A stretch of DNA of 64,000 bases from Brumimicrobium glaciale. Its GTDB lineage: Bacteria; Bacteroidota; Bacteroidia; Flavobacteriales_D; Crocinitomicaceae. Where the stretch lies: the NCBI RefSeq assembly GCF_004152935.1, contig NZ_SETE01000003.1:513876-577875 (forward strand), in the 5' to 3' direction. Below, piece after piece: positions 29,510 to 45,153 of this stretch. The notes below the pieces were generated by a model. The model was given only the letters and a program-made list of their open reading frames with translations. It was not told where the DNA came from and did not search any database. Numbering within the stretch: the first letter of the stretch is position 1; each line of letters opens with the position of its first letter. A program made the position numbers and the translations under genes.

Positions 29510-30242
29510 AGAAATATTCAATAAGTTAAATTCGAAAACTGGTCAAATTGCTGTTTTAATTGATCCAGAAGAGACAAATTCCGTTGAAAAACTTCAAATA
29601 ATCGTTGAAAAAGCAAAATTCGCCAGTGTGGATTACTTCTTTATCGGAGGAAGCACAGTCACGAGATCAGATTTTCAAAAGACAACTTCTATTTTGAAAT
29701 CTTTGACGGATATTCCTCTGGTTATTTTCCCTGGAGATCATCAACAATTATCAAATGACGCAGATGCATTGCTGTATTTGAGTTTGCTGTCAGGTAGAAA
29801 TCCGGAGTATTTAATTGGTCAGCATGTGAAAAGTGCCCAAGAAGTGATTCAACTGGATTTAGAAATAATTCCAACCGCTTATATTTTAATTGACGGAGGA
29901 AAACAATCGACTGTTGCGTATGTGAGCCAAACTACCCCAATTCCTAGAGACAACACACAAATAGCTTTGAATACTGCCATTGCAGGAACGCTTCAAGGAA
30001 ATAAAGTGGTGTATTTTGATGCTGGAAGTGGAGCGAACCAACCTGTAGATGCGCAATTAATTAAACAAGTGAAAGCGCAATTAGAAACGGTGACGATTGT
30101 TGGCGGTGGAGTGCGTTCTATTGAGCAAATTGAAGCCCTAAAGTCTGTTGGAACAAATGTGATTGTGATTGGGAATAAAATAGAGGAAGACATTGATTTT
30201 TTGTTGGATATTCAGAATTACAAATCTAAAGTGTTGTCATGA
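29496..30242 (+). CDS. Geranylgeranylglyceryl-phosphate synthase-like protein (PcrB/GGGPS family)
   Basis: A 248-aa TIM-barrel prenyltransferase. Landmarks are IAVLIDPEE, YFFIGGSTVTRSDF, PLVIFPGDHQQLSNDADALLYLSLLSGRNPEYLIGQH, the TAYILIDGGKQSTVAYVSQT strand, YFDAGSGANQPV and TIVGGGVRSIEQI (phosphate-binding loop). Archaea use the enzyme to join geranylgeranyl to glycerol-1-phosphate. Bacteroidota carry group II homologues whose physiological product is little known. I use the ATG at 29496 (MKLSKEIFNKL), inside the end of the PPTase gene. The following gene overlaps its stop by 4 bases. Confidence 0.88.
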   Translation: MKLSKEIFNKLNSKTGQIAVLIDPEETNSVEKLQIIVEKAKFASVDYFFIGGSTVTRSDFQKTTSILKSLTDIPLVIFPGDHQQLSNDADALLYLSLLSGRNPEYLIGQHVKSAQEVIQLDLEIIPTAYILIDGGKQSTVAYVSQTTPIPRDNTQIALNTAIAGTLQGNKVVYFDAGSGANQPVDAQLIKQVKAQLETVTIVGGGVRSIEQIEALKSVGTNVIVIGNKIEEDIDFLLDIQNYKSKVLS

Positions 30243-31855
30243 AATTCATTAGTGTTAGAAGGTTAGCAGCTGTTTTAAAGCTGGAAGTTTCACGCACAAA
30301 TGATGAATTAATTCATAAATTAAAACAGTCGGTTGATCAACATTTCCTTAAAAATCAAATTCTAAATGCTTTTGGACAAGATTTCGCTCAACAAGAGCTG
30401 ATCTTTATTTTAAATCAACTAAAAGAGGAGAATATTCCTGTTTTCCATGAATGGATTGAAGAAGATCGTCTCTTGGTTGAATATTTATTTAGTTCTGGAG
30501 AAATTATTTTGGAAAATGAAGATGTGATTTTATCTAAGGAAAATGACTTATTTGAAACATATCAAAATTTCCTTGAAACTTATCTAGCTCCAATTTTATC
30601 AAAGAAACTTTCTGAATTCATAAAGGAAGGAAACTTAACAGAATTGGGTAATCATTTAAGATTTAGTCCACTTTTGGCTAAGAAGAAACGCATTGAAATT
30701 CAGCAGGCGGTAGTTTCCTACTTGCGACAATCGATTGCTCAATTAAAAGTAAGTCATGACCAAGAATTACAAAAGCAACTTAAACTCGTTTTTTCGATAG
30801 AGTTCGTTCAGTTACTGAATGAATTAGATGAAAGTTTCTACGCTGATTCTATAAAATATTTTGACACAGCAAGACTAGTCGTTCAAAGGAATGATTTAAG
30901 TCTGTTGGTTCTGGACAGAATTAAATCTGCTATTTTAAGTTTAAATTTGAACAAAGAAGACCATCAAAAGGTGGTAGATTTCAGTAGTTCAAATGCTTTT
31001 AGAGCAAGAGTTAAAAAACCAAACTCAAGAATCAATGAGATGGTGAAATCACCTTTCTTTATTGTAGCGGTGATAGTGGTTTTGGTGAATTTTATTTTTT
31101 TGGATTCGGAGGGGGAAGTGGAAATTAATAATAGTGAAGAGAACGTATTTGTAACTTCATATTTAGATGATAATGAAATTAGAGACTTTCCATTCCTGAT
31201 AGACACGTTTAACCTTGAGATAACTTACAAAATTCTTCAAGAAGCGAGTGTTGCCAATTATCGCCCGCTTTATATTGGTGTTAAAAATGACACTTTAGAT
31301 GTTAATTATAATCTTTCGAAATACTATGCACCACCACCTGACATTGAAGTTATTGAGATAGATTCAACAATTCCACCAAAAAGTGAGATTGAGAAAAATA
31401 AAATAAGACAAAATCACGATAAGATCTCTGAATATTTTAAGGATTTATCTTTTGAAAAGAAATGTCCGGATTGGTACGATTCAAAAATAAAAATTACAAT
31501 AGGCACAACTCAGAAGATTAGAAATGTTGGCTCAAAGAAGTATGAAGACACAGATTTTATTTATGAAGCTTATCCAGTTATTTTAGAAAACACTTCTGAC
31601 AGCACTATTATAATTGGTTATGGTTCTCAGATTCCATTGATTTTAGAATTGAAAGATGAAAGTGGAGAATGGAAAGCTACCGAAACTATGTTTACTTACA
31701 TGTGTGGGAATGGACTTCCTTCAATTTTATTACCCAAAGGAGAGATCGTTCTGACTTCAGTTCCTGTTATGAAAGACGAGAAGAAAATTCGATTTAGGTT
31801 GAAAATTGGTGGGAATTATTCTAGGGAATTTGGTGGGGTTTTAAGTAATGAGTGA
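30239..31855 (+). CDS. Unknown single-pass membrane protein (538 aa)
   Basis: An N-terminal helical, charged region of about 265 residues (HWIEEDRLLVEYLF..., RKKRIEIQQAVVSYLRQSIAQLKV) precedes one transmembrane segment (about 272-287, FFIVAVIVVLVNFIFL). About 250 residues of mixed composition follow (CPDWYDSKIKITIGTTQKI, YPVILENTSDSTIIIGYGSQIPLILELKD). By charge the first part should be cytoplasmic and the last part periplasmic. I recognise no family. The start overlaps the PcrB-like gene by 4 bases (ATGA), so it is coupled to a lipid gene rather than to the condensin-like operon that starts 68 bases after its stop. Confidence 0.6.
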   Translation: MKFISVRRLAAVLKLEVSRTNDELIHKLKQSVDQHFLKNQILNAFGQDFAQQELIFILNQLKEENIPVFHEWIEEDRLLVEYLFSSGEIILENEDVILSKENDLFETYQNFLETYLAPILSKKLSEFIKEGNLTELGNHLRFSPLLAKKKRIEIQQAVVSYLRQSIAQLKVSHDQELQKQLKLVFSIEFVQLLNELDESFYADSIKYFDTARLVVQRNDLSLLVLDRIKSAILSLNLNKEDHQKVVDFSSSNAFRARVKKPNSRINEMVKSPFFIVAVIVVLVNFIFLDSEGEVEINNSEENVFVTSYLDDNEIRDFPFLIDTFNLEITYKILQEASVANYRPLYIGVKNDTLDVNYNLSKYYAPPPDIEVIEIDSTIPPKSEIEKNKIRQNHDKISEYFKDLSFEKKCPDWYDSKIKITIGTTQKIRNVGSKKYEDTDFIYEAYPVILENTSDSTIIIGYGSQIPLILELKDESGEWKATETMFTYMCGNGLPSILLPKGEIVLTSVPVMKDEKKIRFRLKIGGNYSREFGGVLSNE

Positions 31856-31923
31856 TGCGTTTTTCCGGAAAATGAGTAAGTTTGGAAAAAGACACTTTTT
31901 AAGCTAATACTTGAAGTAATAAA

Positions 31924-33120
31924 ATGAATACTTTCAACGACATAAAGGAATTGGTATCTGCTCTAAAAAGAGAAGAGAAATTGATTTCTGAAATGTTTAG
32001 TAAGCGGAAATCCATTGACTATAAATATAGTGATGCTATTGAATTAGTCGATACTGACGAAAATCGAATTGACTTCTTGATTGCAAGAGCTGTAATTCGG
32101 GAAAACGGAGGTTATTTAGAACTTGATGATCAATATTTAGACTTTTTCGAGCAGATATTGGATGTAAATGAGGAAATCAATCTTTCTTATATTGATGAGA
32201 ATATTAAAAACATCAAAGAAAATATTGGTTACTTTCTCAATGAAAATAGTGAAACGCGAAAGTATGGTTATCTAAAGTTTATTAAAAAAACACTTAGAAA
32301 AATTGGAAGTATAACAATCAGAAGTGTAGTTGATATTCGACGAAATATTGAGAATACTTTCAAAAATGAGGCGAACTATAAGAACAAGCAACTAAAACTT
32401 GAAAATCTGGATCAAAAACGGAGTTTAGTTGAGAAACTGATTGTCCAAACATTGCTTTTAATTGATAAAGAAGAACTGACTTTTTTCAATAGGGCTTTAG
32501 ATGAAGAATTAAAAAGAGTAATTGTCGATTTGAAATTTCAGCTTAGAGAATGTTCACACAACTTAATTGAAATAGAAAAACAGATTATTGATTATCTGAA
32601 TCAAATCAAACATCAAGGAAAGTTCTTAGAAAAACTGAGAAAGCTAAAGTATTTGAAAGACCACTTTACGATTGAAGCTGAAACAGATATTAAGCAGATT
32701 TTAGCCAATAAGAATCAGGTCATTTTTGAAAAGAGAATTCCTGAACCTTTGAATTTGTCGCTTGATTTTATCCGAGAAAATGAAAAAGCGTTTGAAGCGA
32801 TTAAAAGAATTGCTGAAAATCATAAAGACAGAAAACTGTTCAAACCTGAAATAGCTGATTATATCTCTTCGGAATTTCTTGAGAATACAATAGAAGAAGA
32901 GATAATGATTAACTTGGATGAGTTGCGAAATCAATTTATTGCAACAAGTGATAATTTATTCAATTTCATTATGAATTATGACTTTTTGAGACAAGTTGAT
33001 TTTGATGAAAGAGTAACAATATTCTGTCAAATCACTTCACAATATGAAAAAGATTTAAGAATTGAAGATGATTTTGAAATAGCAAACGGAGTCGAATTTG
33101 CTCTGGTTTATCCAAAATAA
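31924..33120 (+). CDS. Kleisin-like condensin subunit, JetA/MukF-like (Wadjet-type)
   Basis: A 398-aa soluble, mainly helical protein. The N-terminus (ELVSALKREEKLISEMFSKRKSIDYKYSDAIELVDTDENRIDFLIARAVIRENGGYLELDDQYLDFFEQIL) looks like a winged-helix dimerisation region. The centre is long helices (residues about 140-240, SLVEKLIVQTLLLIDKEEL). The C-terminus is again compact. Size and position as the first of four genes match JetA of Wadjet and MksF/MukF kleisins, which bridge the SMC heads. Direct sequence similarity is too low to see by eye; the call depends on the next three genes, especially the SMC. Confidence 0.6.
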   Translation: MNTFNDIKELVSALKREEKLISEMFSKRKSIDYKYSDAIELVDTDENRIDFLIARAVIRENGGYLELDDQYLDFFEQILDVNEEINLSYIDENIKNIKENIGYFLNENSETRKYGYLKFIKKTLRKIGSITIRSVVDIRRNIENTFKNEANYKNKQLKLENLDQKRSLVEKLIVQTLLLIDKEELTFFNRALDEELKRVIVDLKFQLRECSHNLIEIEKQIIDYLNQIKHQGKFLEKLRKLKYLKDHFTIEAETDIKQILANKNQVIFEKRIPEPLNLSLDFIRENEKAFEAIKRIAENHKDRKLFKPEIADYISSEFLENTIEEEIMINLDELRNQFIATSDNLFNFIMNYDFLRQVDFDERVTIFCQITSQYEKDLRIEDDFEIANGVEFALVYPK

Positions 33121-33125
33121 GTAAT

Positions 33126-33698
33126 ATGATTACAAAATATACTTCCGAAATATTTGATGTTCTTCGTAGAGGACAATTTATTTGTTCCAATAGTCCGAAC
33201 GAACATATTCAAACACTTTACAGGGTTTTAGAATACGATAAAACCTTCGAGGATTTGTATGCTTATTTTTATCAAATCAATTATATTTTAGAGCATGGAA
33301 ATGAGTATTTCTATTTCAGTCGAGATGAAAAAAATGTTGATTTGGATAGAAAGCTTAGAAAGGCATTTGAATGGATTGATGTTTTAGATTTCTTTAAAAC
33401 TTTTGATTCATCTTTTGATGTTGGATATAGATTTTCACCTTCCGATATTATTAATCAACTAAAAAACAACGCTGATTTAACTTCAAAGTTTGATTATCTT
33501 AAGAAAGTCAGTGGTGATAAAACGAGTCATTCAGATAGGGTTAAAAAGATAATTGGCAAATTAGTAGATGATAATTTCATAATGCTTGAAGACGAAATAT
33601 CTGAAACATATAAAGTAATGACTTCTTTCAATTATTTAAAAGAAATCATTACAGCTATTAATATTCCAGAAGAAGTAGAAAATGAGATACCTGAATAA
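33126..33698 (+). CDS. MukE/JetB-like KITE subunit of the condensin-like complex
   Basis: A 190-aa protein. It begins YTSEIFDVLRRGQFICSNSPNEHIQTLYRVLEYDKTFEDLYAYFYQINYILEHGNEYFYF, following the MukE/JetB pattern (a winged-helix start with LxxGxFI, then LY, then a GYFYF-like strand). The second half (DRVKKIIGKLVDDNFIMLEDEISETYKVMTSFNYLKEII) looks like another winged helix. KITE subunits bind the kleisin as dimers. It starts 5 bases after the kleisin-like gene and overlaps the SMC gene by 17 bases. The family call is moderately sure from pattern plus context. Confidence 0.65.
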   Translation: MITKYTSEIFDVLRRGQFICSNSPNEHIQTLYRVLEYDKTFEDLYAYFYQINYILEHGNEYFYFSRDEKNVDLDRKLRKAFEWIDVLDFFKTFDSSFDVGYRFSPSDIINQLKNNADLTSKFDYLKKVSGDKTSHSDRVKKIIGKLVDDNFIMLEDEISETYKVMTSFNYLKEIITAINIPEEVENEIPE

Positions 33699-36600
33699 GA
33701 TTGTATTTATAAACAGTGCATCAGTAAGCTATGCTGAAATTGAACTAGATGGAAATGTTCATTTAATCGGAACTCAAGGAGTAGGTAAGAGTACTTTATT
33801 ACGTGCCATTCTGTTCTTCTACAATGCGAATAAATCCAAATTAGGAATTCCAAGAGAAAAGAAAGGATTTGATGATTATTACTTTCAATATCAAAACTCA
33901 TATATCATTTATGAAGTTGAAAAAGAGGGTGTACCTTTCTGTGTTTTGGCTTATAAGGTAAATGGAAAAGTTGCGTTTAGATTCTTTAATTCTAGATATG
34001 AAAGAGAGCTATTTATTGATGAAAATAATAGAGCTTTTGAAAGTTGGGATAAAATAAGAAATGCTTTAGGTAAAGAAATTCATTACAGTACAATTGTATC
34101 CAGTTATGAGGATTTCCGAAGGATAATTTATGGAGACAATAAAGGACTGAAACCTGATTTTAGGAAATACGCATTGATAGAGAGTAAGCAATATCAAAAT
34201 ATTCCTAGAACAATTCAAAATGTTCTTTTGAACTCAAACCTAGAGGCTAAATTTATCAAAGACACGATTATAAACTCTATAAATGAAGATGAAACTACGA
34301 TAGATATAGAAAACTATTCGAAAGTTCATTTAATAGATTTTGAAAGAGAAATCAATGACATAAGAATATGGTTTAAAGCCAATAAAAAAGGTGAAATTGT
34401 TATTCGGAATCAAGCAGAAAGAGTCATTGATAAATACCGTATTCATAATTTTTTGATTGGGGAAAAGAAACAATTGGCCCATGCTTTAGGATTTAGGATG
34501 GATTTTATTGAGAAAGAAAAACCACTTTTGATTTCTAATTCTTCCAAAGAAAACAATGTATTAATCGAGCTTTTTAATAAGAGGGAAAACTTAAAAGACC
34601 TTCATTTAAAAAGAGAACAAAAATTAGTTTCTGATATTGATTATGTAAAGAAAGAATTAATCAAAGCGGCAAAAAAGCAAACTGAATACGACAATCAAAA
34701 TATAGATGAAGTAATTCGGAAAGTAATTCAGAGAGACACTTTAGAAAGAGAACTCAGAACTTTAGGAGAAGAAAAGAGCTTATTAAAATCTGCTTTTGGT
34801 CAAATTAGTCAAAAGTATGAATCTTTAATTTCGCAAGTTCAAAATCAACAACAAGAGTTTACTAATCACCGAAGTGCTGAGGTTAATAACATTAAGAGTG
34901 AGTCTGGCGAGAGCAGGGAAAAACTTTTTGAGACCTACGTAAAGCTTATTGTTCAAGTTGAAAATGATAATCAAACTGAAAAAGAAACGGCATTTAATGA
35001 ATTAAATAGTGTAGTTGAAAGAGAAAACACCTTAAAAAGGAAGAAATCCGAGTTGAAATATCAGGTCTTTTATGATGTTGAAATTAATAAATGTAAAATA
35101 GAGATCAACGAAATTAAAGAAAAAGTTGCGGGTGCGAATAGCACTATTCTTAATTCAAAAAATGAGGTAAATATACTGCGAAAAGAATGGGAGCTTGAAG
35201 AAAAAGAAATCGTGAGATCAACAGGGTTAAAAGTAGACTCAATCAATAGCAAAAAAACTAAATTTACTGATCAAATTCAATTGTTAGAGAATAAGATTGC
35301 CCAAAGTAAATCTTCACTTTACGGTTGGTTAAATGATTACGTTCCGAATTGGGAAAATACTATTGGAAAAGTAATTGATGAAGACAATGTTCTTTTTAAT
35401 TCTGAATTGAATCCTAAATTAATCAATGAGCGTTCAGATACCTTTTTTGGTGTTGAATTGAATTTAAACGGATTAAATAACCGTACTAAAACTTTAACAG
35501 AGTACAATGATGAGATTACAGAATTTAAAATAGAAAATGCTAATCTACATAAATCACTTCTTCAACTAAATGAGGATAAGGAAGATGATTTACAAAAGCT
35601 TAAAACAAAATTCAGGAAAAAGCTTAAAGGTTTTAAAGATGTTATTGCAGAGAATGAATATTTTATTGAGCAATCTGACCAAAAATTAAAGAAGATTCAA
35701 GTTGAATTGAGTGAATGGCTTGAAAAATCTAAATCAGAGAAAATTAAGATTTCAAATGAGATTGAAAATAAGCTGAATGAAGTTACTTCTGACAAAGTAA
35801 AAGCACAAGATAAGCTAGGGAAAATTAAAATTGGAATAAAGCGTAAAATCACTTTAAAAGAAAACGAAAGAGATTCCGCGATTTTAAGTTTACAGACTTT
35901 GAATCAAACTAGAATTGATGAAATTCAACTTAATATTTCTAATAATAAAGAAGAATCTGAAAAACGAGTTCAAGAGTTAAGAAAAGAAGAAACTTCTGAA
36001 CTTGATATTAAAGGAGCTGATATCAAAAGGATTACTCTAATTGAAAACAGATTATTGGAAGTTGAAAAAGCAATCGAATACATTAGAAATAATGAAGCTA
36101 TTGTAATTGAATACAAGAAAGATAAAAGAGAGCTTTTTGACCGAATTCCTGAGTTTAGGGCTGAAAAAATAACTTTGGAAAAAAGACAAAATTTAATTCT
36201 AGAAGAACATAAAGATGAAATTGTTAAACTAGATAAAAAGTATTTTGATCAGAAAACGGTTGTTGATGGTATACAATCAGAAGTCGACGAATTTAATACA
36301 GACGAAAAAGAATTTGCGGAATTCAAAAAACTTGATGCCTTCATAAATATTCAAACTTATTTTTCTGATGCAATTTCAGAAGATAAAGACTTGAAAACTG
36401 CTCACTCTATTATTTCAGAGATCAAGGGGAGGTATTATAAAGGAATTGAGAATTTCAAAGAGTTACAACAAAATATCAATGCTTTTAACGGTAATTTCAC
36501 CTATAAAAACATTTTCTCTTTTAAAACTGACTTAAACAATGATGAAGACTTTTTAAGTTTTGCATCAGATTTAAAGGAGTTTACGGAAGAAGATAAAATC

Positions 36601-37383
36601 AATGAGTTTGAGAAAAGGGTGAATTCACGATTTGCTCATATTATTCAATTGATTGGACGCGAAACAGCAGAATTAAACTCCAAAAAAGGAGATATTGAGA
36701 AGATTATTAAAAAAATCAATGATGATTTCAGCAGTAAAAACTTTGTGGAAGCCATCAAAGAAATGGAAATACGCACATTAGCAAGTTCAAACCCAGTCGT
36801 TAGATTACTGATTAAGATTCAAGAGTTTAATGATGAAAACAGTTTCCTTTTAGGAGAAACCAACCTTTTCACTTCCACTGATAGTAATTCTAAAAATCAA
36901 AAGGCTGTAGAACTTTTAAAGGAACTGGTAAAAGCGATAGAAAAACACAAAAGTCCAACGTTAACCTTGTCTGAATCCTTTGAATTACAATTCAAAATTG
37001 TAGAAAATGACAACAATTCTGGTTGGGTTGAGAAACTATCAAATGTGGGGAGTGAAGGAACAGATGTTCTGGTAAAAGCGATGATAAATATCCTTCTCTT
37101 AAATGTTTTCAAAGACAGTGCTTCTAAGAAATTTAAAGATTTCAAATTGCATTGCATGATGGATGAAATTGGAAGATTACACCCTAATAACGTTAAAGGT
37201 ATTTTAAGATTTGCGAACGAAAGAAATATCTTGTTGATTAACGGTTCGCCGACAAGTCAAAACGCTACCGATTACAAGTACACATATAAATTGGCAAAAG
37301 TTCAATCAGAATCAGATGCTAAGAAGTACATCACGAAGATTAATCGATTGGTTAAAATCAATACAAAGGTTCCTAATAAATGA
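33682..37383 (+). CDS. SMC/MukB-like ATPase, JetC-like (Wadjet-type), 1233 aa
   Basis: The Walker A GTQGVGKS (residues 30-37) lies in the N-terminal head. About 850 residues of heptad-rich charged coiled coil follow (about 260-1010). The C-terminal head has a signature-like NVGSEGTDVL (about 1121-1130) and Walker B CMMDEIGRLHPNN with D1161/E1162. The pattern LIGTQGVGKSTLLRAILFFYNA is MukB/JetC-like rather than Rad50-like, and no CxxC zinc hook is present. Such ATPases extrude DNA loops; in Wadjet the complex recognises small circular plasmids. It overlaps both neighbours by a few bases, so the four products are coordinately made. The length is at the upper end of what I recall for JetC, suggesting a longer arm. 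Confidence 0.85.
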   Translation: MRYLNKIVFINSASVSYAEIELDGNVHLIGTQGVGKSTLLRAILFFYNANKSKLGIPREKKGFDDYYFQYQNSYIIYEVEKEGVPFCVLAYKVNGKVAFRFFNSRYERELFIDENNRAFESWDKIRNALGKEIHYSTIVSSYEDFRRIIYGDNKGLKPDFRKYALIESKQYQNIPRTIQNVLLNSNLEAKFIKDTIINSINEDETTIDIENYSKVHLIDFEREINDIRIWFKANKKGEIVIRNQAERVIDKYRIHNFLIGEKKQLAHALGFRMDFIEKEKPLLISNSSKENNVLIELFNKRENLKDLHLKREQKLVSDIDYVKKELIKAAKKQTEYDNQNIDEVIRKVIQRDTLERELRTLGEEKSLLKSAFGQISQKYESLISQVQNQQQEFTNHRSAEVNNIKSESGESREKLFETYVKLIVQVENDNQTEKETAFNELNSVVERENTLKRKKSELKYQVFYDVEINKCKIEINEIKEKVAGANSTILNSKNEVNILRKEWELEEKEIVRSTGLKVDSINSKKTKFTDQIQLLENKIAQSKSSLYGWLNDYVPNWENTIGKVIDEDNVLFNSELNPKLINERSDTFFGVELNLNGLNNRTKTLTEYNDEITEFKIENANLHKSLLQLNEDKEDDLQKLKTKFRKKLKGFKDVIAENEYFIEQSDQKLKKIQVELSEWLEKSKSEKIKISNEIENKLNEVTSDKVKAQDKLGKIKIGIKRKITLKENERDSAILSLQTLNQTRIDEIQLNISNNKEESEKRVQELRKEETSELDIKGADIKRITLIENRLLEVEKAIEYIRNNEAIVIEYKKDKRELFDRIPEFRAEKITLEKRQNLILEEHKDEIVKLDKKYFDQKTVVDGIQSEVDEFNTDEKEFAEFKKLDAFINIQTYFSDAISEDKDLKTAHSIISEIKGRYYKGIENFKELQQNINAFNGNFTYKNIFSFKTDLNNDEDFLSFASDLKEFTEEDKINEFEKRVNSRFAHIIQLIGRETAELNSKKGDIEKIIKKINDDFSSKNFVEAIKEMEIRTLASSNPVVRLLIKIQEFNDENSFLLGETNLFTSTDSNSKNQKAVELLKELVKAIEKHKSPTLTLSESFELQFKIVENDNNSGWVEKLSNVGSEGTDVLVKAMINILLLNVFKDSASKKFKDFKLHCMMDEIGRLHPNNVKGILRFANERNILLINGSPTSQNATDYKYTYKLAKVQSESDAKKYITKINRLVKINTKVPNK

Positions 37384-38231
37384 AACTAACATTAAAAATA
37401 GCTAAGGTATTGGTTCAACTTATCGATGGTGAAGCAATTCCTGCAAGTTCAGCAAAAAGTAAATTAATTGACGATTTAGTATCCGAAAACATCATTTTTC
37501 GTAAAGGTAAACAGCGCAAGACTTTAGAACTTTTAAATGAAGAAGCCTTACATATATACTTAGCTAATCAACTGCAAATTAATGATTTGAAAAAGTATAT
37601 TTCTGCTGTGGAAAATACTGAATCCTCTCGTACAGATTTTGTAAAAATCACCACTGATTCTAAACATTCGAAAGAAAGAGCATTTAAAGGGTTTCTAATT
37701 AACTGTTATCACCCTATAGTTGGGAAGTTAAATGGACAAGAATTCATTGTTAATCCTAGTCCTGGTAGCTTTGTTTTTATATATGACTTCGAGACTTTTA
37801 AGATTCCAAAAAACGTGACAGTAGTTGGAGTGGAAAATGCCAAAAACTTCAGTCAGATTGAAGAGCAGAAACAACTTTTTAAAGACATAAATCCTCTGTT
37901 TGTATCACGTTATCCGCAAAATCAAAACAAAGATTTTATTCAATGGATGAAATCAATTCCTAATGACTACCTACATTTTGGAGACTTTGATTTTGCTGGG
38001 ATTGGTATTTATTTGAATGAATATAAAAAGAAAATTATAGGAAAATCATCGTTTTTCATTCCTAAAAATATTGATATTATTTTGTCCAAATACGGAAATA
38101 GAAAACGTTATGATATTCAAAAAATGAATTTTAATCAAGAAGATATTAAAGATGAGAAACTTCTAGGTCTGGTTTACTTAATCGCTTTAGAGAAGAAAGG
38201 ATTGGATCAAGAGTTTTTTATTGGGAAGTGA
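37380..38231 (+). CDS. Toprim-domain nuclease subunit, JetD-like (Wadjet-type)
   Basis: A 283-aa protein. The N-terminus looks like a winged helix (KVLVQLIDGEAIPASSAKSKLIDDLVSENIIFRKGKQRKTLEL). The C-terminal half carries a Toprim-like core: TVVGVENAKNF with the acidic E152, then HFGDFDFAGIGIYLNEY with the DxD pair D202/D204, as in topoisomerase VI A/JetD proteins. JetD cleaves the DNA that the condensin part has recognised. It is shorter than the JetD I remember (about 350-400 aa), so the N-terminal module may be reduced. The start overlaps the SMC stop by 4 bases. This is the clearest sign that the operon is Wadjet-like and not a housekeeping MukBEF. Confidence 0.72.
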   Translation: MKLTLKIAKVLVQLIDGEAIPASSAKSKLIDDLVSENIIFRKGKQRKTLELLNEEALHIYLANQLQINDLKKYISAVENTESSRTDFVKITTDSKHSKERAFKGFLINCYHPIVGKLNGQEFIVNPSPGSFVFIYDFETFKIPKNVTVVGVENAKNFSQIEEQKQLFKDINPLFVSRYPQNQNKDFIQWMKSIPNDYLHFGDFDFAGIGIYLNEYKKKIIGKSSFFIPKNIDIILSKYGNRKRYDIQKMNFNQEDIKDEKLLGLVYLIALEKKGLDQEFFIGK

Positions 38232-38313
38232 TAGATGGTTTAAATATAAACCCTCTTTACTCCAACCATTTTCACTAAGTTTAAATTCCATTCTAGACAA
38301 AAAGCCTAATCAA

Positions 38314-38697
38314 ATGATTCAAGTAGTTTGTGCTGTAATTTTAAGAGACAAAAAAATGCTCATTGCCCAACGCAGTGAGAAAATGAAGCTACCTTTGAAA
38401 TGGGAGTTCCCTGGAGGGAAGTTAGAAGAAGGTGAAAGTGAAGAGCAAGCTATTGTTAGAGAAATCAAAGAAGAACTAAACATTGAAATCCTTCCAGTAA
38501 AAAAGATATCTTCTCATGTTCATGATTATGGTGATTTTAAAATAAACTTGATTGCTTATTTATGTGATTATGTTGCTGGAGAAATTAAGCTTTTGGAACA
38601 TCAAGATTATAAATTCGTTGAGTTTGATAAATTATTAGATTTTGATTTGGCGGATGCGGATATTCCAATTATAGAAAAATTGAAAATACTTTTGTAA
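38314..38697 (+). CDS. NUDIX hydrolase, MutT-like (8-oxo-dGTP diphosphatase type)
   Basis: About 127 aa, starting MIQVVCAVILRDKKMLIAQRSEKMKLPLKWEFPGGKLEEGES. The Nudix box GGKLEEGESEEQAIVREIKEELNIE is complete (GX5EX7REUXEEXGU with Asn-Ile at the end). The ATG at 38314 is preferred to an earlier in-frame start because the family begins here. Such proteins clean oxidised or other unwanted NTPs. In Bacteroidota they are often found with DUF3427 helicases, as here: the helicase remnant starts at the last base of this gene (TAATG). Confidence 0.88.
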   Translation: MIQVVCAVILRDKKMLIAQRSEKMKLPLKWEFPGGKLEEGESEEQAIVREIKEELNIEILPVKKISSHVHDYGDFKINLIAYLCDYVAGEIKLLEHQDYKFVEFDKLLDFDLADADIPIIEKLKILL

Positions 38698-39120
38698 TGA
38701 TAGAAGGAATTTACGAACAGCTGATCACAAAATTATTCGCTTCTAAATTAGAGGAACTTGATAGCGATTTAATAGAAGGTGATCTCGTTAAATCAGTAGA
38801 ATATTTTTCTCCAACTACAAGGTATAATGATTACGCAGTTAGTGATACGCTTTTTCACTGGCAATCTCAAAATCAAACACGTTCAGACAGGGGTGAAGGG
38901 TTGACTTATGTTACTCATCAAGATCTAAACAAAAAAAATTCTACTTTTCACCAGTGAGAAAGCAAAAGATATATTTGGAAACACAATAGGATATGTTTTT
39001 ATTGGTGAAGGAAATATTCAAGATTATTATGGAACTAAGCCTATGAGTATAAATTGGCTTTTGAATGAACCAATTCCTCAATATTTATGGAATGCTTCTG
39101 CTAAAATGTCCGTTGGATAA
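38697..39120 (+). pseudogene. Remnant of a DUF3427-type superfamily II helicase (internal deletion and frameshift)
   Basis: The first about 24 codons (MIEGIYEQLITKLFASKLEE) resemble the very start of DUF3427 helicases. They then run directly into the far C-terminal DUF3427 part (YFSPTTRYNDYAVSDTLFHWQSQNQTRSDRGEGLTYVTH). The whole helicase core (Walker A, DEAD/DEAH, about 700-900 residues) is missing. At an A8 run near 38931-38938 the frame breaks. The +1 frame continues KKILLFTSEKAKDIFGNTIGYVFIGEGN...YYGTKPMSINWLLNEPIP to a stop at 39120. So there are two independent lesions and no function is expected. Confidence 0.78.
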
Positions 39121-39187
39121 GGTTATATTAACATCTACTCTATTGCAAAATCCATAACTTTTAATTAATTTAAAGGAAAATCAAACA

Positions 39188-40252
39188 ATGTCAAAAAGCG
39201 TAAAAATTATAGGTACAGGAAGTTATATTCCGGGAAATGTGACTAAAAATGAGTCTTTTAGTTCTCACCGTTTCTTTAATATTGATGGTTCTAAAATTAA
39301 GGAGTCGAATACCGATATAATTGAGAAATTTAAAGCCATAACAGGGATTGAGGAAAGAAAATACTTCGATAATAACTTGGTGACATCAGATATGGCATTT
39401 TTTGCTGCGAATGAAGCAATAAAGGATGCTAAAGTGAATCCTGAAGAAATCGATTACATTGTTGTAGCGCATAATTATGGCGATGTAAAATACAATTCCA
39501 TTCAAAGTGATATGGTTCCTAGTTTAGCTTCGCGGGTCAAACATTTGTTGCAAATAGAAAATCCCAATTGTGTAGCTTATGATATACTTTTTGGTTGTCC
39601 AGGATGGTTGGAAGGGATAATTCAGATGAATGCATATATCAAAGCTGGAATGGCGAAAACATGTTTAGTAATAGGTGCTGAAGGACTTTCTAGAGTCATC
39701 GACCAACATGACAGAGATTCTATGATTTATAGTGATGGTGCAGGAGCTGCTGTTATTCAATTAACAGAATCTACGGGAGGAATCATTGCACATTCAACAG
39801 AAACACACACAAAAGAAGAAGCCCATTTTATTCACTTCGATAAGAGTTATGAAAAACTTGAAAATAGTGCCAGACATTATATTAAAATGTATGGGAGGAA
39901 AGTCTATAATTTTGCTTTGAAAAATGTGCCTGTAGCCATGAAATCTTGTTTAGATAAAAGCGGTGTTTCAATTGATCAAATTAAAAAAATAATTATTCAT
40001 CAAGCCAATGAAAAGATGGATGAAGCTATTTGCGAACGTTTCTTTAAACTTTGCAATCGCGAAGTTCCAAATAACATAATGCCCATGAGTATTGGTGAGC
40101 TTGGAAATAGCAGTGTTGCTACAATTCCAACGTTATTGGATCTCATTTTGAAATTAAAAATGAAGGGTCATAAAATAGAGAAAGGCGATCATGTGATGTT
40201 TGCCAGTGTTGGTGCTGGAATGAATATTAATGCTGTGGTTTATCAGTTCTAA
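39188..40252 (+). CDS. 3-oxoacyl-ACP synthase III family protein (KAS III paralogue)
   Basis: A 354-aa thiolase-fold protein. The catalytic cysteine is in ILFGCPGWLEG (C137), the histidine in IIHQANEKMDE and the asparagine in GELGNSSVATIP. Compared with fabH at 25976 it is longer and has a diverged active site (FGCPGW in place of NAACSGF), and the insert RFFNIDGSKIKESNTDIIEKFKAITGIEERK is characteristic of a separate subfamily. Such paralogues often work in secondary metabolism, olefin or pigment synthesis, or use unusual starters. No partner genes are nearby, so the substrate is unknown. Confidence 0.85.
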   Translation: MSKSVKIIGTGSYIPGNVTKNESFSSHRFFNIDGSKIKESNTDIIEKFKAITGIEERKYFDNNLVTSDMAFFAANEAIKDAKVNPEEIDYIVVAHNYGDVKYNSIQSDMVPSLASRVKHLLQIENPNCVAYDILFGCPGWLEGIIQMNAYIKAGMAKTCLVIGAEGLSRVIDQHDRDSMIYSDGAGAAVIQLTESTGGIIAHSTETHTKEEAHFIHFDKSYEKLENSARHYIKMYGRKVYNFALKNVPVAMKSCLDKSGVSIDQIKKIIIHQANEKMDEAICERFFKLCNREVPNNIMPMSIGELGNSSVATIPTLLDLILKLKMKGHKIEKGDHVMFASVGAGMNINAVVYQF

Positions 40253-40505
40253 GCACTCTACTCTCTTTTTCTTTCTCATTCTGTTTCTCTTTCTCACTCT
40301 TTCATAACGTAAAAGATTAAGCAGCGCTGCGTTGATTTTTCGCACTTGTACAGAGCTTTCCGAAGTAAAGGTTCGCAAAGAACAACGTAAATTCTCACGC
40401 TGCAAAAACCGAAGGCGAATGTGATTTGTCTTCAAAAAATATCTCGTTTTTAACAGTAAAAAATAAAAATCCCGTAATATTTTATTCTACATTTGGAATA
40501 AAATA
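40253..40505. other. Intergenic stretch with pyrimidine-rich tract
   Basis: Starts with a CT-rich run (about 40258-40300) like that at 9550-9585, followed by sequence with no credible gene on either strand. Confidence 0.4.
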
Positions 40506-41355: not shown

Positions 41356-44300
41356 ATGAAAAATTATATTCTATTACTGACAATTATTTGCTCTTCCTTT
41401 TTCTTAAAAGCACAGATGGTTCAATTCGAGCAAGTTGGTCCGCTTCCTCCAGAACTACCAAACATAACCAATTTTAAAGGTGTTTGGAATGGAGATGCTA
41501 AAGCTATTGACGTTGATGGGGACAATGATGAGGACCTCTTGATCCTTGGTTCGATTGGGTCGAACACAGGAATAACAGAGCTTTATTTAAACGACGGAAA
41601 TGGTGAATATACTTTATCTACTGGATCATCTTTTACAGGAGTCTATCATGGAGAAGCCGCCTTTGCAGATATTGATGGGGACAATGATCCTGATTTAATA
41701 CTTATGGGTGGTGATATGATTAGTCAATCATCAGAAATATATATCAATGATGGATTGGGTAATTTTACACTAGATGGCACGACCTCTTTTCAATTATTAT
41801 TTAATAGTTTTTTGGGAGTTTCAGATATAGACGGTGACGGAGATTTGGATTTACTAATGTCAGGATATGCAAACTTTAATACTCCGGTTACCAACCTATA
41901 CATTAATGACGGATCAGGTAGCTTTGCGCTTTCAACTACAAATTCTATTTCTGGTTTTGCAGATGGTGCAGTTGATTTCGCAGATATTGATGGCGATAAT
42001 GATCAAGATTTATTTATTTCTGGAAGAAAGGACGGTTCCTTAACAGGGCTTTCAGAGCTTTATATTAATGATGGAACAGGAGTTTTTTCACTTGCTTCAG
42101 GGGTTTTATTTCCACCAACTTCTTATGGTACCGTTGATTTTGGAGATGTTAATGGAGATAATCATCAAGATTTATTAATCACAGGTGCAAACGTAATTGA
42201 CTATTATTCTAATCTTTACATAAATGACGGTCTAGGAAACTTTAGCTTGGTTCCAGGAAATCCGTTACCCGAAACTGGTAGGGGAGATGTCGCATTAGTA
42301 GATATTGATGGAGATAATGACTTAGATATATGTATGACAGGTATTGGTTATTTAGGTCAAGGTTTTTTTGTACAATATTACAATGATGGCTTGGGAAATT
42401 ATACCAACGGATTAGGGAATAATGTTTATGGGACAACTAACGGAGCAATTGTCTTTTCAGATATTGATGGAGATAATGATAAAGATTTTTTTATTACAGG
42501 ACAAACTGGTGAAGGACTTAAAACGCAACTCTATACCAACGATGCATTGGGTAACTTTACTCATGTATCGGGAACTTCATTTCTAAATACAGAGTTCGCT
42601 AAGATTTATTTTGGAGATATTGATGGCGATAGTGACCAAGATGTCCTAATTCTTGGAGAGCCTTCTAGAATTTACAAGAATGATGGAATTGGGAATTATG
42701 ATTACGTTACTGGAACTTCCATTTCAAACTTAAGATTCAATGATGCTGTTTTGCAAGATATGGACAGTGATAATGATCTTGATTTATTAATTTCAGGATG
42801 GAGTAGTAATGTAATGGTTTGTGAATACTACACCAATGATGGTACAGGTAATTTTACTTTGGTTTCATCATCACCTCTTAATCAGGTTTATAGTTCTAGG
42901 ACTTCCTTTTCAGATATTGATGGAGATGGAGATATTGACCTTCTTCAAACAGGTATTATTATGAGTGGAGAAATAATTACAGAAACTTATAATAACGATG
43001 GATTTGGAAATTTAAGTCTTTCTTTTGGTTTTCCAACTAACTCAGGAGTGGGGTCATCCCCATCAGGCCCAGGGACAATTACTTTTGGAGATATCGACGG
43101 AGATAATGACCAAGATGTTTTATTAACAGGACGTGATAGCACCCTTGCATTAGTTTCTCAGCTTTATAGAAATGATGGGTCTGGAAACTTTAGTCTTATT
43201 GCGGGAACCTCATTTATTGGTGTAAAAGGTTGTTCTGTAGCCTTTGCTGATGTTGATGGAGACAATGACCAAGACATTATATTATCTGGCGAAGTCTCAA
43301 ATTATAATTACATTACTTATCTCTACAAGAATGATGGAGCTGGAAACTATAGTCTTGATCCGGGAACAACCTTTACAGGTGTGGAAAAGGGTTCTATTGC
43401 CTTTGCTGATGTTGATGGAGACGCTGATTTAGACCTAATAATTACTGGAGTTGATGCCGGTAATTCGCGGGTTGCTGAATTATACATCAATGATGGATTA
43501 GGTAATTTTACTATTCTCTTAGGAATGCCATTTACAGAAGTGAAAATGAGTTCTATTGCATTTTCTGATATCGACGGAGACAATGATCCTGATTTACTGT
43601 TGACAGGAAATGCATCAAGTGGTTTGGTTACGCGACTTTATAGAAATAAACCTTGTTATCCTAATTCAGGCCAAGACGTTCAAATTGCTTGTGGATCCTA
43701 TACTTGGATAGACAGTATTACCTATACCGCTTCCAATAACACCGCTACTTTTTCACTTGTAAATAGTGCGAATTGTGATTCGATTGTAACATTAGATTTA
43801 ACGATAAATCCAGTTCCAACAAGAGATACAACGGTTGTCGCTTGTCAAGAGTTTGAATGGTATGGAAACTTCTATACTTCGTCGAATATTTACACATATA
43901 CCAAAGTAAATCCCATTGGTTGTGACTCTATTATCATTTTAGATTTAGTGATTACTCAACCCACAACAAGCAATTTAACCGTTGTTGATTGTGAGCAGTT
44001 TATATGGTTTGGAAACATTTATACAAGCTCAAATTTATATACGCATACTCTTATCAATAATGCTGGTTGTGATTCAATTATCACCTTAGATTTAACAATC
44101 AATCAACCAACAACAAGAGATACAATTGCTGTGGAATGTGAGCAATTTACTTGGTATGGAAACACATATACGAACTCAGATTTTTACACACATACACTTC
44201 TAAATAGTGTAGGTTGTGACTCAGTGATTATATTAGATTTAACAATTAATCAACCAACGACTAAAGACACCATAGCGTTAGCATGTGGTCAATTTACATG

Positions 44301-45153
44301 GTATGGAAATATATACACATCTTCAAATTTTTATACGCATACGCTCTTAAATAGTGTGGGCTGTGATTCCATAATTACGTTGGATTTAACCATTGGTAAT
44401 CCATCAGTCGGAGATACTATTGCAAATGCTTGTGAACAGTTTACTTGGTATGGAAATACATATTATACATCAAACTTTTACACGCATATACTCACTAATA
44501 TGTATGGATGTGATTCAACCGTTTACTTAGATTTAACAATCGGTAATTCAAACGTTGGAGATACAACTGCAACTGCTTGTGTGGAATTCACATGGTATGG
44601 AAATACTTACAGTTCAAGCAATACCTACACCCATACATTAACCAATGCTTCTGGTTGTGATTCCTTGGTAACACTTGATTTAACGATTAATGAGGTAAAT
44701 ATTGGAGTTGCATTGGATGTTGGGGTGTTTACAAGTCAGGCCAATGGAGCTACTTATCAATGGTACAATTGTGAGCCGTTGAATGAAGAGATTTCAGGAG
44801 AAACAAATCAATCTTATACACCAAGAGAAAATGGAAGGTATTCTGTGATTGTTACCCAAGGTGGTTGTGTAGATACTTCAGATTGTATTACTTTAAATAA
44901 CGTTGGAGCAGCATCTTATGCTAAACTAGATTATAAATTATATCCTAACCCTGTGGTTAACCAGTTGACTATTGAAAGTCAAGGAAATATATATGAAATA
45001 GAAATATATAGTATAACAGGACAAAGACTTATCGCTTTTCGACCTCAAACTAAAGACATAAAAATAGATTTTTCAACTTACGGAAAAGGGGTGTATTTAG
45101 TAAAAATGCATTCTGAAGGTCAGGTAACAACCTCAAGGGTAATAAAACAATAA
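41356..45153 (+). CDS. Large T9SS-secreted protein with FG-GAP/VCBS repeats and 49-residue repeats
   Basis: A 1265-aa exported protein. A signal peptide (MKNYILLLTIICSSFFLKAQ) is followed by about 13 FG-GAP/VCBS-like units (roughly 20-770) with the calcium-binding-type motif D-x-D-G-D-x-D-x-D (DIDGDNDPDL) and the partner LYINDGxGNF. They should fold as one or two beta-propellers. Then come six 49-residue units (about 815-1110) of the form CDSIITLDLTI ... CEQFTWYGNTYTSSNFYTHTL, each with two cysteines that could form a disulfide. An Ig-like SPRYSV-type segment follows. The last about 80 residues are a type A T9SS sorting domain (YKLYPNPVVNQLTIES ... KGVYLVKMHSEGQVTTSRVIKQ). It is likely cell-surface attached and adhesin-like. 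Confidence 0.9.
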   Translation: MKNYILLLTIICSSFFLKAQMVQFEQVGPLPPELPNITNFKGVWNGDAKAIDVDGDNDEDLLILGSIGSNTGITELYLNDGNGEYTLSTGSSFTGVYHGEAAFADIDGDNDPDLILMGGDMISQSSEIYINDGLGNFTLDGTTSFQLLFNSFLGVSDIDGDGDLDLLMSGYANFNTPVTNLYINDGSGSFALSTTNSISGFADGAVDFADIDGDNDQDLFISGRKDGSLTGLSELYINDGTGVFSLASGVLFPPTSYGTVDFGDVNGDNHQDLLITGANVIDYYSNLYINDGLGNFSLVPGNPLPETGRGDVALVDIDGDNDLDICMTGIGYLGQGFFVQYYNDGLGNYTNGLGNNVYGTTNGAIVFSDIDGDNDKDFFITGQTGEGLKTQLYTNDALGNFTHVSGTSFLNTEFAKIYFGDIDGDSDQDVLILGEPSRIYKNDGIGNYDYVTGTSISNLRFNDAVLQDMDSDNDLDLLISGWSSNVMVCEYYTNDGTGNFTLVSSSPLNQVYSSRTSFSDIDGDGDIDLLQTGIIMSGEIITETYNNDGFGNLSLSFGFPTNSGVGSSPSGPGTITFGDIDGDNDQDVLLTGRDSTLALVSQLYRNDGSGNFSLIAGTSFIGVKGCSVAFADVDGDNDQDIILSGEVSNYNYITYLYKNDGAGNYSLDPGTTFTGVEKGSIAFADVDGDADLDLIITGVDAGNSRVAELYINDGLGNFTILLGMPFTEVKMSSIAFSDIDGDNDPDLLLTGNASSGLVTRLYRNKPCYPNSGQDVQIACGSYTWIDSITYTASNNTATFSLVNSANCDSIVTLDLTINPVPTRDTTVVACQEFEWYGNFYTSSNIYTYTKVNPIGCDSIIILDLVITQPTTSNLTVVDCEQFIWFGNIYTSSNLYTHTLINNAGCDSIITLDLTINQPTTRDTIAVECEQFTWYGNTYTNSDFYTHTLLNSVGCDSVIILDLTINQPTTKDTIALACGQFTWYGNIYTSSNFYTHTLLNSVGCDSIITLDLTIGNPSVGDTIANACEQFTWYGNTYYTSNFYTHILTNMYGCDSTVYLDLTIGNSNVGDTTATACVEFTWYGNTYSSSNTYTHTLTNASGCDSLVTLDLTINEVNIGVALDVGVFTSQANGATYQWYNCEPLNEEISGETNQSYTPRENGRYSVIVTQGGCVDTSDCITLNNVGAASYAKLDYKLYPNPVVNQLTIESQGNIYEIEIYSITGQRLIAFRPQTKDIKIDFSTYGKGVYLVKMHSEGQVTTSRVIKQ

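Follow-up and report, generated by a model that had tools for sequence, protein, structure and literature searches.

A 64,000-nucleotide stretch of the genome of Brumimicrobium glaciale (contig NZ_SETE01000003.1; this whole stretch is called the window hereafter) contains four adjacent genes, here named A, B, C, and D, and raises the question of what machine they encode and against which DNA it might be directed. A sequence-only reading of this DNA had taken them for a Wadjet-like (JetABCD) operon. We consider it likely that the operon encodes a four-subunit complex of a structural maintenance of chromosomes (SMC) motor and a nuclease, that this complex belongs to the Wadjet (JetABCD/MksFEBG) group as a type for which PADLOC has no model, and that it restricts incoming plasmids. 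The gene set, the folds, the catalytic residues, and the coinheritance and accessory distribution of the operon were computed.

The four subunits of the operon

The four open reading frames (ORFs) lie exactly where the sequence-only reading had placed them (Table 1), all in one direction, with a spacing of +5 bp between A and B and with overlaps at B/C (-17 bp) and C/D (-4 bp), which indeed join the last three genes. The B/C overlap of -17 bp recurs in 64 of 76 B/C pairs of relatives, and the C/D junction measures -4 or -1 bp in 48 of 70. Most of the 80 best related loci, which include close kin of one another, repeat these genes in this order, so the cluster goes beyond chance. The window thus holds the codirectional set of kleisin, kleisin-interacting tandem winged-helix element (KITE), SMC, and Toprim genes that marks the Wadjet/Mks group.

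D matches the Pfam family PF23947 (DUF7281) above cut-off (E = 1e-8) and JetD_C below it (E = 0.0081), and its sequence contains VEN and GDFD. A structure model built from a 71-row alignment (predicted local distance difference test [pLDDT] score, 89) consists of a winged helix (residues 1-90), weakly similar to those of the MarR/ArsR type (Z of about 5-6), followed by a Toprim domain. When the model was realigned to PDB chains, MksG of Corynebacterium glutamicum came first (8b7f_A; Z of 12.4 over 150 residues at 3.3 Å), followed by TopoVI-A (1d3y; Z of 11.3), JetD (7til_B; Z of 10.7), and Spo11 (8urq; Z of 10.6), which are mutually tied; the next family was DnaG primase, also a Toprim protein, with a Z of 6.3. 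Residues E152, N153, D202, and D204 are invariant in all 71 aligned D sequences, so that the Toprim protein with VEN and DxD that had been read in this gene is borne out by a modeled fold and by the metal-binding E and DxD of a TopoVI-A-type Toprim. In a profile alignment of D with seven JetD proteins, which covers the Toprim part only, the catalytic residues of D fall, weakly, on the EN and GDxD of JetD. In MksG, the exchanges E236A and D279A drastically impaired nuclease activity, as described in PMC10123090. Overall, the modeled D combines a winged helix with a Toprim domain of the MksG/TopoVI-A/JetD/Spo11 group, with MksG as its nearest member.

The invariant glutamate is residue 152 in D and residue 253 in the JetD of locus L173, so that the part of D ahead of the active site is shorter by about 100 residues. 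No Pfam match to the N-terminal domain of JetD was obtained with D, in which only the winged helix precedes the Toprim domain. The small size of D that the sequence-only reading had remarked on (283 amino acids [aa]) is a property of the whole family, since all 70 related D proteins measure 281-302 aa, with a median of 284.

Structure prediction, which had been proposed as a check against the Jet, Mks, and Muk proteins, yielded a kleisin fold for A as well as the Toprim fold of D, and B was identified by Pfam. A itself has no Pfam match above cut-off and no PADLOC or NCBIfam match. Its AlphaFold model is of medium confidence (pLDDT, 79.8; predicted template modeling score, 0.43), and the first nine PDB chains ranked by Foldseek all come from JetABCD, MukBEF, MukE-MukF, or MukF entries, the best being 8q72_E (E = 6.8e-5), a chain assigned to JetA from its length. 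A VIA-align Z of 13.4 to MukF lies barely above a helical background near 12. A therefore keeps its earlier description as kleisin-like, in that it models as a kleisin with a MukF/JetA-type fold. B, which had been called MukE-like, passes the cut-off of Pfam PF21980 (MksE) with an E value of 2.9e-44 and by its sequence is MksE, a KITE subunit of the MukE/MksE type.

C matches Pfam PF12128 (DUF3584) over residues 18-1193, nearly its whole length (E = 6.6e-49), and contains three ATP-binding cassette (ABC) motifs, namely, Walker A GTQGVGKST, a signature-like NVGSEGTD, and Walker B HCMMDEI. Walker A residues G30, Q32, G33, G35, K36, S37, and T38 are invariant in the eight aligned proteins, in which the signature-like and Walker B segments form conserved blocks; among 80 C proteins scanned, the Walker A pattern was found in all, the signature pattern in 74, and the Walker B pattern in 78. 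As in an SMC protein, Walker A lies toward one end of the chain, and the signature and Walker B lie toward the opposite end. The view that C, at 1,233 aa, is unusually long holds against eight operons with JetD_C, whose JetC-sized ORFs encode 1,114-1,158 aa, but fails against the PADLOC JetC2 and JetC3 models (1,361-1,472 positions). SMC proteins are not known to require a zinc hook, and its absence from C says little. A phmmer search of C and D against PDB sequences returned spurious matches only.

Table 1. Positions in the window of the operon, its domains and motifs, and the surrounding insertion
Feature	Position	Strand	Basis
A, kleisin (MksF/JetA-like), 398 aa	31924..33120	+	AlphaFold model and Foldseek
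B, KITE subunit (MksE/JetB-like), 190 aa	33126..33698	+	Pfam PF21980
C, SMC ATPase (MksB/JetC-like), 1,233 aa	33682..37383	+	Pfam PF12128, ABC motifs
C, Walker A GTQGVGKST, residues 30-38	33769..33795	+	Alignment of 8, scan of 80
C, signature-like NVGSEGTD (residues 1121-1128) and Walker B HCMMDEIG	37042..37173	+	Alignment of 8, scan of 80
D, short JetD/MksG-like nuclease (predicted), 283 aa	37380..38231	+	Pfam PF23947, structure model
D, winged-helix domain, residues 1-90	37380..37649	+	Model
D, Toprim domain, residues 100-283	37677..38228	+	Model, structure realignment
D, catalytic residues E152; D202; D204	37833-37835; 37983-37985; 37989-37991	+	71-row alignment
Accessory insertion, 8.6 kb, approximate extent	31834..40446	.	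Conserved flanks in congeners

Relatives, known models, and accessory distribution

When PADLOC models were scanned at E values of up to 1, C matched JetC1 (E = 8.6e-7, over 54 residues) and D matched JetD1 (E = 7.2e-5), and nothing was found for A or B; NCBIfam gave no match near cut-off for any of the four. Two type I control operons from genomes of the same taxonomic class scored strongly, with a best PADLOC model at 2.3e-55 or better for each of their eight proteins, and the miss of A-D is therefore not a failing of the tool. The JetA2-D2 and JetA3-D3 models matched no window protein at E values of up to 1, in a comparison whose positive controls were of type I only. Judged by its sequences, the operon is not Wadjet type I, and our best reading is that it represents a Wadjet-group type absent from PADLOC. 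The suggestion of an unclassified Wadjet type, made in the sequence-only reading, thus fits PADLOC, no model of which covers the class. Among the titles and abstracts listed in searches of the open literature, none was on a DUF7281 Wadjet or a fourth type of Wadjet. A 2025 census of the Wadjet group (PMC7617805) used iterative profiles and, for MksF, a length filter of 400-1,200 aa; A proteins as called are shorter than 400 aa in 59 of 74 cases, a few of them fragments, so that part of the class may be omitted there. That census may nevertheless include the class, at least in part.

An SMC-alignment scan of named genomes returned at least 462 stretches with relatives, of which the best 80 were kept. 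D stands behind C in 70 of these 80 loci; four more end at a contig edge (one of them, L135, inside a recognizable D) and six lack D, so that 70 of the 76 loci that can be evaluated have it. The D-less loci are L097 (A also missing), L106, L125, L128, L129, and L139 (A and B also missing), and tblastn found no remnant of D in these six, with D detected in two D-bearing control loci. Two of the 70, L087 and L094, have C and D without a match to A or B. Pairwise distances between D proteins correlate with the distances obtained for A, B, and C (65 loci; r = 0.81-0.87; 0 of 999 permutations as high). The records of relatives are mostly labeled Bacteroidota, and those labeled Fibrobacter, Melioribacter, Desulfuromusa, and Bathymodiolus endosymbiont may reflect transfer or misbinning.

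The same kinds of genes occur in the order C-B-A-D on plasmids of Pseudomonas sp. Leaf58, Aromatoleum aromaticum EbN1, and Vibrio breoganii, where all four genes of each set are annotated as ATP-binding or hypothetical proteins. Their D proteins (281-290 aa) give a full-length profile match to the window D (probability, 98; E = 1.4e-14; 262 columns), and Pfam finds MksE, DUF3584, and DUF7281 in the sets of Leaf58 and Vibrio. The best PADLOC match of these two sets is to a non-Wadjet family (3.2e-7), and the best Jet match reaches 5.2e-5. We define here a DUF7281-nuclease class, in which profile comparison places the window operon together with the C-B-A-D plasmid operons. PF23947 alone is a poor detector of this class, as it finds 5 of the 395 genomes of the window's taxonomic class and misses the D proteins of genomes G146 and G199.

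A match to C was present in 38 plasmid records, of which eight were examined. In Persicobacter psychrovividus, the 157-kb plasmid pPP6, typed as nonmobilizable, carries ABCD and an annotated relaxase gene, and a 380-kb replicon has a C preceded by two genes of suitable length but has no D. The Raoultella record (L145) holds only a 222-aa fragment of C adjoining a transposase gene. Records from Phocaeicola, of which the one examined is unannotated, and Parabacteroides, where the match lies amid chromosomal-type genes, were not used as cases of plasmid carriage. Viral contigs gave one locus, L142, which is close to the D-less L036 and is probably a bacterial stretch.

B of any kind was found in 27 of the 395 genomes, and D in eight of these 27, the window's included; one of the eight D genes ends at a contig edge, and another (L032) lies 0.9 kb behind C. 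The remaining B-bearing genomes have D-less relatives or, in G359, a contig too short to tell. Within the family, the operon is present in 2 of 150 genomes, its own and that of a Crocinitomix contig identical to L082. In two congeners, G442 (L200) and G415 (L202), a 538-aa gene directly adjoins a YkgJ-like gene, which gives an empty site; these are the two informative stretches of six checked, and the four without a YkgJ match say nothing. Between the matching flanks lie 131 bp in G442 and 8.6 kb in the window. The operon is thus part of an insertion that also includes a NUDIX gene, a KASIII gene, and a broken DUF3427 remnant. The guanine-plus-cytosine fraction is 0.28-0.33 inside the insertion and 0.31-0.38 outside it. 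The window operon is an accessory insertion, and with 2 of 150 family genomes and an empty site in two congeners it does not show the membership in a housekeeping MukBEF clade that the sequence-only reading had named as the outcome speaking against its own proposal.

Proposed function and its alternatives

Loop extrusion, the sensing of circular DNA, cleavage, and plasmid defense are carried over here from type I Wadjet, for which the model is one of loop extrusion with a nuclease that cuts once extrusion of a small circle completes (PMC10586767). By homology with JetABCD and MksBEFG, A and B would bridge the heads of two C ATPases into a DNA-loop-extruding motor, on which D would dock as a Toprim nuclease akin to JetD, MksG, TopoVI-A, and Spo11; the motor would run round a small circular DNA and stall, whereupon D would cut the circle, and incoming plasmids would be restricted. 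Because D consists of a Toprim domain and a single winged helix and is missing the N-terminal part of JetD, the contact through which the motor activates it should differ from that in type I.

In favor of this proposal are the gene set with its tight spacing, the MksE and DUF3584 matches, the modeled folds of A and D, the invariant catalytic residues, the coinheritance of D with A, B, and C, and the accessory distribution, which includes the ABCD copy on pPP6. Several results weigh against it. Pairwise BLASTP of each of A-D against one type I operon gave nothing significant (best E, 0.25), and neither did a profile-profile comparison of A with the type I JetA kleisin (E = 0.29). The profile match between D and JetD is weak (probability, 40; E = 2.9e-4), and Foldseek by itself listed TopoVI-A and Spo11 but not JetD or MksG among its top 50 matches to D, so that the JetD and MksG matches come from the structural realignment. 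We also compared the first 101 of 165 selected ORFs near ABCD loci with all 101 selected neighbors of D-less loci of family f43, and obtained 107 and 35 PADLOC families, respectively, at an E value of 1e-10; as many PADLOC models match one and the same protein, we claim no enrichment, and known defense families are not clearly enriched near ABCD loci over the D-less control.

The alternative that survives best, although we regard it as unlikely, is a defense complex of the same build directed mainly against phage genomes, integrative elements, or large circles, in which the short D and the divergent motor would sense another DNA state. Such a role would suit the truncated N terminus of D, the ABCD copy borne by a plasmid of 157 kb, and the statement that type II and III systems may recognize other substrates (PMC10586767), but the Wadjet systems described in the sources drawn on act on plasmids or circular DNA (PMC10586767, PMC10123090, PMC12647877) and the catalytic residues of D are unchanged. 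An MksBEF condensin that organizes the chromosome of a bacterium lacking canonical Smc, in which D would serve as an accessory nuclease or as a regulator, appears improbable. In its favor, ScpA gave no match in the window genome, G000, and Smc none above cut-off there, and a D-less sister complex is characteristic of genus g50, where MksE occurs in 40 of 40 genomes and D in 1 of 40. However, the three operon-less congeners tested (G400, G415, and G430) also lack Smc above cut-off, so that the operon is dispensable there, and both its accessory distribution and the conserved catalytic residues of D argue against such a role. Least probable is a D that has lost its nuclease activity and serves only to gate or unload the motor, an idea that draws on the shortness of the D family and its weak sequence match to JetD and is countered by the invariance of E152, D202, and D204 in all 71 sequences. 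The plasmid-restricting complex of the Wadjet group is thus the reading that we retain.

We asked whether the 538-aa gene upstream of the operon (30239-31855) might supply a fifth component and rejected this idea, since the gene had no match in 26 related regions and adjoins pcrB without the operon in five of six congener stretches. Its product has one hydrophobic stretch, recognized by eye, and a TssM/IcmF match in NCBIfam far below cut-off (4.2e-4), and the congener homologs next to pcrB are divergent (34-52 percent identity). At 38221-38954, the NUDIX gene is followed by the short DUF3427 remnant (PF11907; 7.1e-7), which is the tail of a degraded gene. Further on, 41356-45153 encodes a secreted-looking protein of 1,265 aa with many repeats and a C-terminal region that, by eye, resembles a type IX secretion sorting signal.

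Probable loss of the nuclease and comparison with known systems

In a tree of SMC heads with 76 rows, which took in 51 of the 80 named loci and left out L147, the presence of D requires eight changes, and in a more careful tree of 57 rows, from which 19 further rows (outgroups, long branches, and near-duplicates) had been dropped, it requires seven, at least four of them forced by well-supported branches. Such counts give no direction; single D-less rows are nested within D-bearing clades (L106 next to L116 and L129 next to L130), a pattern that suggests repeated loss of D. A separate D-less sister clade belongs to family f43 (L038-L051, mostly genus g50). In g50, the MksE matches of G538, G542, and G559 are weak or partial, the single genome with D, G553, has an ABCD operon, and A, B, and C are present in all 11 stretches fetched, with other ORFs interposed in two and with intact ABC motifs. 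ScpA was not found in any of the 11 g50 genomes tested, nor Smc above cut-off in any of three, and the nuclease-less complex is a candidate core condensin of this genus. As ScpA is present in only 81 of the 395 genomes, its lack is common in the taxonomic class and not specific to genomes of the g50 kind. ABCD and D-less complexes can occur in one genome, as in G146, where the ABCD copy has a broken C frame.

Two further observations concern condensins and nucleases elsewhere in these bacteria. In family f4, the SMC proteins of two MksBEF-like clusters (L053, 6440-9592; L055, 8842-11904) are without Walker A, and their genomes, G085 and G207, have a full Smc (TIGR02168, about 1e-300) and ScpA; these complexes are apparently decaying or pseudo-ATPase condensins. 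Of the 30 sampled genomes that carry a canonical JetD (PF09983), 24 are from a single genus, g223 (family f84, same phylum), some with up to four matches.

With somewhat less than even confidence, we put forward a broader picture in which the class would be a fourth type of Wadjet, with a short DUF7281 nuclease as its defining feature and with its genes arranged as ABCD in Bacteroidota and as CBAD on proteobacterial plasmids; the Bacteroidota branch would have dropped the nuclease several times, and one nuclease-less sister would have become the core condensin of a genus without Smc or ScpA in the genomes tested. If so, a plasmid-killing machine and a chromosome organizer interconvert inside one family. 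Organisms with both kinds of complex (the Persicobacter replicons, G146) allow one to ask how a restriction machine becomes a condensin. PADLOC-based surveys of plasmid barriers in Bacteroidota would undercount, since PADLOC overlooks the class, and a natural nuclease without the long N-terminal part of JetD would reveal which parts of JetD are needed for activation. In two Bacteroidetes species no known condensin was identified, yet one of them shows chromosome-arm alignment, as described in PMC10197239. In other Bacteroidota, nuclease-less relatives of the operon may play such a part.

Among known systems, TopoVI-A and Spo11 share the Toprim fold of D, but the winged-helix part of D has no invariant tyrosine (Y73 is kept in at least 90 percent of the sequences and not in all), and the partner of D would instead be an SMC motor. 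The kleisin, KITE, and SMC subunits of MukBEF and nuclease-less MksBEF are of one group with those of the window operon; unlike these complexes, the operon has a nuclease gene and is accessory, even if D-less relatives exist within its own family of complexes (L036, L125, L128, and genus g50). Type I Wadjet (JetABCD of Escherichia coli GF4-3 and Pseudomonas aeruginosa PA14; MksFEBG of C. glutamicum) has in common with it the order kleisin-KITE-SMC-nuclease, the SMC ATPase motifs, and a TopoVI-A-like Toprim with E and DxD. The subunits differ in size, A, C, and D measuring 484-489, 1,133-1,137, and 392-397 aa in the type I control operons, as against 398, 1,233, and 283 aa here, and type I JetD, of about 390 aa, has a long N-terminal part before the Toprim domain of which D lacks about 100 residues. 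The DUF7281 operons of the C-B-A-D order differ in their arrangement from the A-B-C-D of the window and are remote in sequence, but they combine, as the window operon does, a D of similar length with an SMC protein and small subunits, and PADLOC likewise misses the two sets scanned (Leaf58 and Vibrio).

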